From Petrotoga sp. 9PWA.NaAc.5.4 (lineage in GTDB: Bacteria > Thermotogota > Thermotogae > Petrotogales > Petrotogaceae), in the NCBI RefSeq assembly GCF_002895485.1, contig NZ_AZRK01000012.1:1-64000 (forward strand): a stretch of 64,000 nucleotides of DNA, written 5' to 3'. This document shows positions 15,318-19,521 of the stretch, piece after piece (within the stretch, counting starts at the first letter, position 1; each line of letters starts with the position of its first letter). Position numbers and translations under genes: made by a program. The notes under the pieces were generated by a model, which saw nothing but the letters and a program-made list of their open reading frames with translations, was not told where the DNA came from and did no database searches.

Positions 15318-18300
15318 TTATAAGAGTCCAAATTCTATTCCTTCACTACCGAAGGTAACGTTTTTATCCGGAATGTAGTTAATAAAAAACATAAAACTAA
15401 AAGATGTAAGCATAGGTTGAGGCAATACAGAAAATTTTGCATTAAATCTAACAGTCCAGCATACTATTTGTTTTTGTATTTGAAACTCTGTGAAATCCCA
15501 AGTGTTGTTTTTTAAGTCATAGTTGAAATAAGCTGAAGCAAACTCACTTTTATCTCTATTGATTATTTGAAACCCTGACTTTATAAAATCTGAAAGACTA
15601 TACTGAAAATCTAAACCAAATGAATATTCGGAATTTTTCTCCAAAAAGTTTAAATTTAGATCGTATAAAGTGTATTCATTCTTCATATCAAAATTTCCAA
15701 ATATTTTATTATCGTTATAATAAAAAGTATAATTAGTTGAAATTTCAGGAATGATATCTACAAATGTTTTTTCATGAATATATAAATTATAATCTAATTG
15801 CAATCTGTTTCGTTGATATCTAATAATTTCTCTATTTTTTAAGTATTCGATCTTTTTTTCTTCTTGATGCAAAACATCAAATTCACTTCTATGTGTATAG
15901 TTGGTAAATGTATTTGTAAGTCTTACGCTTGTCTTATCAAGGAAAATATTGTCAGAATCTTCCACGTTAAAGTAAGACTTTGTATATAATGTATTATTAG
16001 ATCCCAATATTTTTATTTGACTTTGATTATCCAGGATTAAAGAACTTAATTCAGGAAACTCTGTTTTATTGAGTAAATTATAAGATCTACTTAATTTGGT
16101 ATAATTTGAAAAGTTGTTGTTAAAAAGGGAAAAAGAATATCCTATATAATCATTATAATTCAATTGATCAGTTGCACTTGGAGTAAGGGAATTTTCTAAA
16201 ACTTTAACATATTCTAACGAATTTCCTAAATCGAAATTGTACAAATTTATATCTATACCTGGTTTTAGACTATATTCAAATAAGGTTTTTCCATCTGAAT
16301 AAACATCATTGGGGATAAAATCCCTTGTATGATTAAACCTTAAACCTGTTTGCATATTCAAATCTAAATTAAAATTGTTTGTTTGATATTCAAACAAGGA
16401 ATCTCTATAAGAGAAAGTATTTTGAGTACTAAGTCTATTCTTTGTGGTGGTAGTTGATTGATTTGTAAAGTTATAATTGAAATTACCATACGAATTAGCA
16501 AAACCAGAGTATAAATTATATTTTCCCGCTAATTCTAAGTGATTTTCTTTGTTGTTCCATATTTCTGAAAAAGGTAAGTCTGAAATATCACCATATGAAC
16601 GAGAATTAAATGTTAGTTTTGATAGAGATAACAAAGATCTTCCATATCTTTTTTGTAATGCTTGAGTTTCCAAATTCAAAAATAGTATATCTTCGAATCC
16701 ATCTTCATTCCATTGAATATACGAATTTATATTTTTTAGATCCCCCAAATTTGTTTTTAGTGTGGGAATGTTTAACGACAAAAGAGATTGATTTGTATAG
16801 GGGTTCACTTTAAACTCTAATTTTGCCGGTTTTTTATTCTTCTCTTCAAAAAATTGATAATACAGCCCTAGGTTACCGTTAGATTTCAATATTTCTGAGA
16901 AAAAGAATAATTCTCCTGATAAAAAAGGTACACCATATCTTAAAACATAACTATCATAAAAAGCACCCGTTTTTAAATTGTTTGTGGATGTGTTTGAAAA
17001 GTGAAATTTTGATCCGTTATCAAATTTATAATTAATCTCAGTTGTAATATCTATTTGATTTTCACCGTAATTAAAGGTTAATGAGAATGGTTCATCTTCA
17101 TCTGGTGATAGAGTTTGAAAATAAAAAGGCAAATATAAAACAGGAACCCCAAAAAAGCTGAGGGTTAAATCTCTTGCAATTAAAAAATAACCTGGATAAA
17201 TATCAACTTTTTTAGCCGAAAAATAGTATGTTACGCATTCTTCACAAGTGGTTAACCGAGTTTCTTTAGCTTGAATAGTATTTTCATCAACTGGTTTTTC
17301 TATTTTATCAGACCATATTTTTATATTAACTTCTTTTTCTCCTTGATATTTTTGAACAGTGTAAGAATTTAAGAAAACGACAGAATCTTCTTCAAAATTC
17401 ACGGTTATTTCAGATGCTTGGATTGAAATATCTTCATATAAATAATTTACGTTTCCATAAAATGTTGCAGATTTTATGGTTCCGTCATTTTTTAACTCTC
17501 CTTGAGCCCTATCTGATTTTATAATAGACCCTTCGTATACGACATAAACGTTATCTTCCAAGATCAATAAATTATCTCTCAAGTAAAAAAAATCAGCAGT
17601 TATATTAACAGGACTCGGAAAAGCCGAGATACTAACTATTATTATCAAAATTAAAGGCAATATTCTTCTTAAAGGTTCTAAGAGTTTATAAGAAAACTTT
17701 GTATCTAATATTAAAAACAAAAAAAGTCCAATGGCACCAAATATGATGTTTGGTATCCAAGCTGCAATTAATGGATCGATAATTTTTTCTTTACCTAAAG
17801 CACTTAACCATGCTCCTGATCCTTGATATATTATTACAAGAACAAAAGTAATTATTACACTCCATGACTTACTTGACAAATTTAAAAACAAAGATAAAGC
17901 TATTCCTAAAACACAAATGACAAGAGGAGCTAAAGAATTTGCAAATTTTGATTGATAAGAAACAACAAGTCCTGAAACATCCAAACCTAATTTTGAAAAA
18001 GTTTGTATCTTTTCTTTCAATTCTTTTGAGGTCATTTCATTAGCACCTTTTGAAAGGTTTAAAAATTCTTCAACTTCTTGGTCTATATCAAGTTCAAGCT
18101 GCTCAAATGAAACATCTAAATCTAAAAAGCCATCTTTATTGGTTTTAAACATTTTTCCATTTTTCATATACCAACCATCTGGGGCTTTTTGAGCTTCTTG
18201 AGCATTAAAAACGGTAGTATAGTTCTTTCCAACTTCGTACAATAAAACATCGTATAGAATACCGTTTTCTCGATCTAATTGTTTTACAAAAAGATACCTT

Positions 18301-18767
18301 CCATCTCCCACATTGACAAATTGATTTTCTTCAATTTGTGCCTGTGGTCTTTGATAGACGTATAGTGCCATAACCTCTTTAGCTTTATAATTTGATTTAG
18401 GGACTATAGTATCAAAAAGAGCAAAAGTAAAAAAACAAAGAATTAAAGATATTACAACAAAAGGGATTACAAATTTCTTCATGGGAATACCCAAGGTTTG
18501 CAAAGCTATTATTTCATTAGCAGAAGAAAGTTTTGAAACGACCCAAAATACGGCAAATAAAACACCTACCGGAATCCCCATAGATATAAAGTAAGGAAGA
18601 TGGTACCAAATTAAAACTAATAGTTTTGAAAAACCAACGTTGTTTCTTACTATTATTTCTGATAGTTGGTACAATAGTTCAACACTTACAAAAACAATAA
18701 AAGCTATTATTCCCATCAAGAAAGGAGGTATAAACTCTTTTGAAACATATTTAAAGAGCTTTTTCAT
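15318..18767 (-). CDS. LptF/LptG permease fused to LptA/LptD (OstA-type) domain and beta-barrel
   Basis: A 1149-residue protein. Residues 1-~355 form an LptF/G (YjgP/YjgQ) permease: three helices, a periplasmic beta-rich domain (about 130-265), then three more helices. A seventh hydrophobic segment (about 367-383) leads into an OstA-like region (about 386-540) with motifs such as LILEDNVYVVYEGSIIKSDR, AQGELKND and FYGNV. Then comes LSFFGVPVLYLPFYF, typical of LptD between its jellyroll and barrel. The remaining ~580 residues are alternating beta-strands rich in Asn, Tyr, Phe and Ser, consistent with an outer-membrane barrel. There is no break in the frame. It may join inner- and outer-membrane parts of a lipid-transport bridge in one chain. 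An AGGAG precedes the ATG; the stop of the PhoU-like gene sits one base away. Confidence 0.85.
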   Translation of the reverse strand: MKKLFKYVSKEFIPPFLMGIIAFIVFVSVELLYQLSEIIVRNNVGFSKLLVLIWYHLPYFISMGIPVGVLFAVFWVVSKLSSANEIIALQTLGIPMKKFVIPFVVISLILCFFTFALFDTIVPKSNYKAKEVMALYVYQRPQAQIEENQFVNVGDGRYLFVKQLDRENGILYDVLLYEVGKNYTTVFNAQEAQKAPDGWYMKNGKMFKTNKDGFLDLDVSFEQLELDIDQEVEEFLNLSKGANEMTSKELKEKIQTFSKLGLDVSGLVVSYQSKFANSLAPLVICVLGIALSLFLNLSSKSWSVIITFVLVIIYQGSGAWLSALGKEKIIDPLIAAWIPNIIFGAIGLFLFLILDTKFSYKLLEPLRRILPLILIIIVSISAFPSPVNITADFFYLRDNLLILEDNVYVVYEGSIIKSDRAQGELKNDGTIKSATFYGNVNYLYEDISIQASEITVNFEEDSVVFLNSYTVQKYQGEKEVNIKIWSDKIEKPVDENTIQAKETRLTTCEECVTYYFSAKKVDIYPGYFLIARDLTLSFFGVPVLYLPFYFQTLSPDEDEPFSLTFNYGENQIDITTEINYKFDNGSKFHFSNTSTNNLKTGAFYDSYVLRYGVPFLSGELFFFSEILKSNGNLGLYYQFFEEKNKKPAKLEFKVNPYTNQSLLSLNIPTLKTNLGDLKNINSYIQWNEDGFEDILFLNLETQALQKRYGRSLLSLSKLTFNSRSYGDISDLPFSEIWNNKENHLELAGKYNLYSGFANSYGNFNYNFTNQSTTTTKNRLSTQNTFSYRDSLFEYQTNNFNLDLNMQTGLRFNHTRDFIPNDVYSDGKTLFEYSLKPGIDINLYNFDLGNSLEYVKVLENSLTPSATDQLNYNDYIGYSFSLFNNNFSNYTKLSRSYNLLNKTEFPELSSLILDNQSQIKILGSNNTLYTKSYFNVEDSDNIFLDKTSVRLTNTFTNYTHRSEFDVLHQEEKKIEYLKNREIIRYQRNRLQLDYNLYIHEKTFVDIIPEISTNYTFYYNDNKIFGNFDMKNEYTLYDLNLNFLEKNSEYSFGLDFQYSLSDFIKSGFQIINRDKSEFASAYFNYDLKNNTWDFTEFQIQKQIVCWTVRFNAKFSVLPQPMLTSFSFMFFINYIPDKNVTFGSEGIEFGLL

Positions 18768-18768
18768 T

Positions 18769-19521
18769 TTATTCTTCTCCTAGAGAATAGAATAATTCCA
18801 TTTCATTTTCTCGACATTTGAATAGATCTCCTGTTAAAGCCCAAATTATATCTTCGGACAAGTTTGTTGTCAGATCTGAAAAAGTTTCAATATTGTTTAA
18901 TATTTCTAAATGGAAAGAAATTACTTTGAAATTTTCTTTAAATTTGTATAGATAAGACTTGTATGCTTTAATCAATGAGTCTATTTCTTTATTCGCAATA
19001 CAAATATTCTTTGCTTTTTTAAAAAAATTATTTTCTGTCTCTTTAGTTTTTAACTTTTTTGCTTCAATATTTATGAAGTCAGACAACATCAACAAAGCGT
19101 ATGAAAAAATTTCTTTAGTAATTTCCATAACATCTTCAAAATTAGCGGTATTTATGACATAAGGGTTATTCATTATATCAATATTAAGTTTTGAATTTTT
19201 CTCAATTAAATCAGCCATATTTTCAAATCTTTGTATTAATCTCGAACCTATAAAACAAGATTTAAGATAAATACCAGTAAAATTGTACGAAGAAAGTAAG
19301 ACTATACTTTCGTATTCTAAATCTGCTTCCATTAGATCTATCCTGTCATCTTGCTGAATTATTTCTTTGGAAAGATCGATTTTTCTTTCTATATATGCAT
19401 CACTGAATTTGTATAACATTCCCTGTACAATTCTTCCCATTCTTAAGACATTGTTAAGGTATCTTATTAATCTATTAAAGCTGAAAGTACTGATATCTTG
19501 AAAATTTTCTTTTTGTGGCAA
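18769..19521 (-). CDS. PhoU-like helical protein
   Basis: An all-alpha protein of about 250 residues with two repeated three-helix units as in PhoU, the phosphate-signalling adaptor. Suggestive patterns are IIQQDDRIDLMEADLEYESI in the first half and ETFSDLTTNLSEDIIWALTGD in the second, matching the E-x-x-x-D metal-cluster motifs. The open frame begins at a TTG (19545), but GGAGGGG (19534-19528) points to a TTG start at 19521, six bases away. No pst transporter or PhoR is nearby; it is coupled to the Lpt fusion gene. It could regulate another transporter. Confidence 0.65.
   Translation of the reverse strand: MPQKENFQDISTFSFNRLIRYLNNVLRMGRIVQGMLYKFSDAYIERKIDLSKEIIQQDDRIDLMEADLEYESIVLLSSYNFTGIYLKSCFIGSRLIQRFENMADLIEKNSKLNIDIMNNPYVINTANFEDVMEITKEIFSYALLMLSDFINIEAKKLKTKETENNFFKKAKNICIANKEIDSLIKAYKSYLYKFKENFKVISFHLEILNNIETFSDLTTNLSEDIIWALTGDLFKCRENEMELFYSLGEE

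Follow-up and report, generated by a model that had tools for sequence, protein, structure and literature searches.

A gene joining an LptF/G-family permease to LptD across Thermotogota and Bipolaricaulota, probably cleaved into both ends of a lipid bridge

RESULTS

A single open frame encodes a permease followed by an LptD-type protein

We analyzed a stretch of 64,000 nucleotides from Petrotoga sp. 9PWA.NaAc.5.4 (contig NZ_AZRK01000012.1), hereafter called the window. The gene under study occupies positions 15318..18767 of the minus strand. It is a single open frame of 1149 codons plus stop, running from an ATG at 18767-18765 to a stop at 15318, with a ribosome-binding site (GGAGAAG, 18774..18780, minus strand) just upstream of the ATG, and the frame is kept in relatives. 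A preliminary description of this locus had given the right coordinates and the right 1149-codon frame, leaving the strand unstated. The product consists of an LptF/G permease, a seventh helix or internal signal peptide, and an LptD beta-taco and barrel. We inspected the translations of the neighboring genes, which encode SMC, uracil-DNA glycosylase, a PhoU-like protein, NAD kinase, YggT, YggS, and RuvB, and found no link to Lpt in any of them.

Residues 1-352 (17712..18767, minus strand) form an LptF/LptG family permease with six membrane helices and a periplasmic beta domain of predicted strands at residues 149-226 (18090..18323, minus strand). PF03739 matched residues 6-352 with an E value of 1.5e-77, covering positions 1-352 of the 353 of the profile. 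The NCBIfam LptG and LptF models also matched (1.1e-42 and 3.5e-38), but their scores of 146 and 131 bits fell under the respective equivalog cut-offs of 240 and 230. Thus, judged by these profiles, the permease is a member of the family and neither LptF nor LptG proper. Foldseek, run with the model of the whole chain, retrieved LptG (6mjp) at E 2.8e-14. In the census of Thermotogota, there was one LptF/G copy per genome with very few exceptions, and in Thermotogota and Bipolaricaulota genomes the fused form was nearly always the sole permease. Since there is one permease gene and no LptF/LptG pair, the permease is presumably a homodimer. It resembles the LptB2FG permease in its full length, its six helices, and its periplasmic beta domain, and the genomes that encode it have an LptB scoring past the equivalog threshold; it differs by the single permease gene, as against the LptF/LptG pair of LptB2FG, and by a C-terminus that runs on into LptD.

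The AlphaFold2 model of the whole chain (mean pLDDT 82) showed seven helices up to residue 377, the seventh at 357-377, and then two beta regions. The former is a beta-taco of the LptA/LptD_N type (residues 388-552; 17112..17606, minus strand), and the latter is an LptD-like outer-membrane barrel, whose predicted strands span residues 561-1146 (15330..17087, minus strand) with pLDDT values mostly of 83-94. The preliminary description had proposed structure prediction as a check of its putative barrel, and the C-terminal half does contain barrel strands. Foldseek gave LptD (5iv9) as the best match of the single whole chain, at E 5.3e-18. With residues 386-1149 alone, the best 17 matches were all LptD, and LptA matched the first domain, the TM-score of the beta-taco against LptA reaching 0.72 (normalized on the target). 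Superposition of the whole barrel on LptD gave a TM-score of about 0.3, the number of strands and the closure not being fixed by the model. The predicted barrel strands were more numerous and shorter than the 26 of E. coli LptD, but this is a prediction only and the count is unreliable.

The LptD match of the window protein was below threshold when its own sequence was used alone (LptA E 0.04), and nothing clear appeared past residue 352; profiles from relatives and structure were therefore needed. PF03968 (LptD_N) was found in 17 of 26 C-terminal parts of relatives, with a best E value of 1.9e-8, whereas the Pfam LptD C-terminal family (LptD_C) had no match among 28 full-length proteins and 26 C-terminal parts. 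Comparison of the C-terminal alignment by hhalign with E. coli LptD, the one reference used, gave E 3e-6 and a probability of 88%. The aligned stretch includes the segment TTC508EECVTYYFSAKKVDIYPGYFLIARDLTLSFFGVPVLYLP, which faces the TSC173 region of E. coli. C508 (17244..17246, minus strand), the counterpart of E. coli LptD C173, is found in 47/47 aligned proteins. C1103, within QIVCW (15459..15461, minus strand; 43/47 aligned), aligns with the E. coli CC724/725 pair and is the probable counterpart of C725. As read from the model and the alignments, the part of the chain after helix 7 is thus LptD-type, with its beta-taco, barrel, motif, and both cysteines. It shares with LptD (Imp/OstA) the beta-taco followed by a large barrel, the TTC...PVxYxP motif, and the counterparts of C173 and C725; it departs from LptD by being the tail of a permease, by its internal signal peptide, and by the lack of an LptD_C match. 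Collectively, profiles, strands, and Foldseek agree with the domain order of the preliminary description, i.e., LptF/G permease, extra helix, OstA/LptD-like region, and barrel in one gene.

Seven fused proteins of family f2, the Kosmotogaceae/Mesotoga group (L023-L027, L029, L048), were about 300 aa longer, at 1426-1466 aa. Mainly the first ~180-230 aa of their LptD part aligned, so this barrel may have changed or grown.

The junction resembles the signal peptide of a free-standing LptD

The two halves meet at residues 362-384 (17616..17684, minus strand), where helix 7 is followed by a putative cleavage zone (EPLRRILPLILIIIVSISA|FP, the bar marking the possible cut) with pLDDT below 50 at 377-384. 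In an alignment of 47 Thermotogota, the layout was K/R residues (n-region), a short hydrophobic core, then a small-x-aromatic-small pattern. The -1 column held A, G, or S in 42/47 sequences as against a background of 19%, and the -2 column held F or Y in 37/47. The window protein itself has a proline at the consensus -1 position, so its cut, if made, would need a neighboring site, A382 or S381, one to three residues off. BamA and LptA of this genome have signal peptides with similar ends (..SFS|IT and ..LLFSA|TI, respectively). In Bipolaricaulota, A-x-A|Q type sites were present in most fused proteins. Junctions there read TWA|QE, AWA|QE, GFA|QE (VTGFA|QE), VRA|QE (LPVRA|QE), and AHA|QD (GIAHA|QD), and one reads RRLVPFVLVLGWVSAAWA|QEPP.

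Relatives in which the genes are separate were informative, as their LptDs begin at the position of helix 7 and carry a normal Sec signal peptide there. The G007 permease stops at ...EPLKRLLG*, and after a gap of a few bases a second gene opens with MHLRYKSFSPVLFIISLFFIILSGTKVFSA|TAYID. G045 encodes LptD as a free-standing gene of about 840 aa, its signal peptide region reading ...LILLIPLMAFT|QDEN. G155 and G156 carry the genes in the order lptA/C-like, lptB, lptF/G, lptD; only a few bases separate lptF/G from lptD, and their LptD has an N-terminal hydrophobic segment. Because the LptD of unfused relatives starts there with a Sec signal peptide, and because a signal-peptidase-like site is kept, helix 7 looks like the former signal peptide of LptD.

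We note that two simpler tests did not discriminate. A weight matrix trained on the N-termini of 30 BamA signal peptides was overfitted and did not separate helix 7 from the permease helices. Likewise, an A-x-A-like site was present at helix 7 in 44/47 proteins but also in 176/229 control helices. The argument was thus built on column conservation and unfused relatives, in place of the presence test.

A reduced Lpt set accompanies the fusion in genomes lacking LpxC

LptB was above its equivalog cut-off in 31/31 genomes and, in the genome of the window, is not adjacent to the fused gene; it lies on contig C15 (L107:6054-7266), adjoining a gene for an OmpH/Skp-like periplasmic chaperone. The same genome has, on another contig, a separate LptA-like (LptD_N-domain) gene with its own signal peptide. 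On inspection, this gene (contig C20, L106:5696-10145) was near one for a coiled-coil protein resembling the SLH-type Omp-alpha toga anchor. There was one LptD module per genome, and none was free-standing in the genome of the window. BamA was found in 49/61 genomes. In contrast, LpxC was found in 0/61 genomes of Thermotogota relatives, the control being positive in E. coli and others. The presence of LptB, an LptA-like protein, and BamA, together with the absence of LpxC, gives this gene set the look of a reduced Lpt system whose cargo is not LPS. The absence of LpxC also supports the preliminary description in leaving the cargo open. A side observation concerns G045, which encodes a 603-aa protein with a signal peptide and three LptD_N/OstA-type repeats (L109:4294-6105), possibly a long LptA bridge.

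The fusion spans two phyla

A protein search found a homologue of the fused protein in 59/61 relatives. We then tallied 103 Thermotogota genomes, 100 of which had the permease, and in 89 of these 100 the frame was at least 900 aa long. The other 11 comprised six frames cut by contig ends, three with a frameshift or stop (G006, G020, G096), one split (G007), and one unfused (G045). The same fusion occurs in Candidatus Bipolaricaulota, where it was found by an alignment search of genome contigs, a search of the same kind with a single sequence having returned no relatives. About 76 of the 90 Bipolaricaulota genomes with a permease had it, the chains being of about 960-1340 aa in most. The fusion therefore spans nearly the whole phylum Thermotogota and a second phylum, which the preliminary description had missed. 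A wider set was centered on a Bipolaricaulota genome without the fusion; there, genomes outside the phylum had mostly two permeases, with frames of about 360-890 aa, and no frame above 900 was seen outside Bipolaricaulota among the matches listed. G280 (contig C1) and G307 (contig C88) have LptF and LptG matches sharing one open frame (773 and 893 aa), i.e., an LptF-LptG fusion.

In the permease tree, the copies of the split G007 and the unfused G045 nest within fused Thermotogota, while unfused Bipolaricaulota branch outside all fused copies and likely represent the ancestral state. This placement fits a scenario in which neighboring lptF/G and lptD genes became one reading frame when the stop codon separating them was lost, the fused gene later splitting again at least once; the number of fusions is not settled by the tree, since outgroup branches are long. 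The split in G007 is known from a single MAG, so a sequencing error is possible there. G045, also a Thermotogota MAG, has two adjacent diverged permease genes (L037:7398-9740) besides its free-standing LptD, a reversion to an LptF/LptG-like pair once the fusion had been lost. The copies with an internal stop or frameshifts (G006, G096, and G020, a Marinitoga lauensis contig) reflect either sequencing error or decay. Separate genes in relatives, with the frame a sequencing artefact, had been named in the preliminary description as a refutation; the few genomes with separate genes, placed as above, leave the 1149-codon frame genuine.

DISCUSSION

Sequence and structure comparison shows that a single chain holds two complete proteins, a permease of the LptF/G family and an LptD-type beta-taco with its barrel. 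They are linked by a short hydrophobic helix, which corresponds to the signal peptide seen on unfused LptD. We consider it likely that lptF/G and lptD have fused naturally into this one gene. A few relatives do carry frameshifts or stops, as an artefact of annotation or sequencing, or a decayed gene, would lead one to expect; such a reading has next to no probability, and was rejected, since the frame is open in about 165 genomes from the two phyla, including many assembled as a single contig, and residues are conserved over the whole length. The C-terminal half could instead be an unrelated outer-membrane barrel, porin-like or adhesin, rather than a lipid translocon. The poor conservation of the barrel sequence, the low whole-barrel TM-scores, and the lack of an LptD_C match would suit this, but the 17 top structure matches, the TTC...PVxYxP motif with the two cysteines, the LptA-like beta-taco, and matches of NCBIfam LptD models to 5/28 members (best 4.2e-9) all indicate LptD and make an unrelated barrel very unlikely. 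Slightly less probable still is that two proteins arise without proteolysis, through a frameshift or an internal translation start close to the junction. Unfused genes do start at the junction; however, the frame is continuous, the junction of the window contains no ribosome site with a start, and a motif of that kind with a start occurred in only 4/45 junctions of fused relatives. An internal translation start was thus rejected.

A more serious question is whether the chain is cut at all. Helix 7 might be a true anchor, each permease then being covalently tied to its own LptD as a single-chain, envelope-spanning lipid bridge, one of the two outcomes raised in the preliminary description. The unbroken frame maintained over two phyla, the preservation of helix 7, and the proline in the -1 column of the window protein speak in its favor. 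Yet only one beta-taco of ~165 residues, about the size of the LptD N-domain, lies between helix 7 and the barrel. Given the width of the periplasm, a single beta-taco of this length is too short to span it alone. Together with the retention of a separate LptA-like gene, this makes an intact bridge less likely. Moreover, an uncut chain would have no need for the conserved small -1 residue or the A-x-A|Q sites, and unfused relatives have cleavable-looking signal peptides at exactly the place of helix 7. We therefore regard the uncut chain as improbable, and a variant of it, an uncut homodimer anchored in both membranes, each half tied via helix 7 to its own LptD with LptA only bracing, as a shade more so. 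Cleavage after helix 7 near residue 385, the other outcome, appears the better supported of the two.

The reading that we favor, with good though not full confidence, is that of a fused lptF/G-lptD polyprotein cut by signal peptidase into a permease and an LptD, the permease acting as a homodimer that exports a non-LPS lipid. From the sequences, we infer that the chain would be synthesized as one polyprotein. Insertion of the six-helix permease in the inner membrane would leave its C-terminus on the cytoplasmic side. Helix 7 would next serve as a Sec signal peptide within the chain, and signal peptidase I would cut right ahead of the beta-taco, in the region of residues 381-385. BamA would fold the freed LptD into the outer membrane, while the permease, the only LptF/G of the genome, would dimerize and join with LptB. 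Contact between permease and LptD would be made by the separate LptA-like protein, and the lipid carried over this bridge to the outer membrane would be one other than LPS, probably a glycolipid. The fusion would serve equal supply and co-insertion of permease and LptD, not covalent bridging.

A precedent for such a layout is the FbcH cytochrome b/c1 polyprotein of Bradyrhizobium, which yields an integral membrane protein and a secreted protein via a cleaved internal signal peptide. FbcH belongs to a respiratory complex, and both of its products remain at the inner membrane. The likeness lies in the internal signal peptide that connects a membrane protein with a secreted one, cleaved in FbcH and putatively so here; the difference is that the LptD part here is assigned to the outer membrane.

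Complete-looking Lpt sets in bacteria without LPS have a parallel in Borrelia. A glycolipid has been proposed as the Lpt cargo in LPS-less diderms such as this one (PMC10353723), and by analogy the cargo is probably a glycolipid here. Borrelia differs in having separate lptF, lptG, lptA, lptC, and lptD genes and an LptD without cysteines (PMC10353723). The Lpt cluster of diderm Firmicutes likewise has a single LptF/G homologue, LptB, and OstA-domain proteins, but no LptD homologue was found there and LPS genes are present (PMC5007114). We view the architecture as a variant of the Lpt system, not as a new kind of system.

Our literature search found no paper describing the fusion, and this widely conserved architecture appears undescribed; a prior description is possible, Putker et al. 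2015, cited in PMC10353723 for Lpt orthologues in Thermotoga maritima, being outside the coverage of the search. The main text of a toga proteomics paper mentions no Lpt protein (PMC3387000). Of two surveys, one has treated Thermotogota as devoid of LPS (PMC5007114) and the other as devoid of nearly all outer-membrane genes except bamA (PMC8871954). We find LptB, LptA, one LptF/G, and LptD across Thermotogota, the last two in one gene, and this fused gene explains how sequence surveys could miss LptD.

The Lpt set gives Thermotogota a lipid route to their outer envelope, the toga. Being common to Bipolaricaulota, the architecture is a candidate marker of envelope history, and the fused chain would be a natural two-membrane polyprotein. 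As the fusion ties permease and LptD in equal amounts, the stoichiometry of the bridge and its cargo become testable. One gene would thus probably yield, by cleavage, both ends of a lipid bridge, in bacteria in which, as searched in Thermotogota, the LpxC step is absent.
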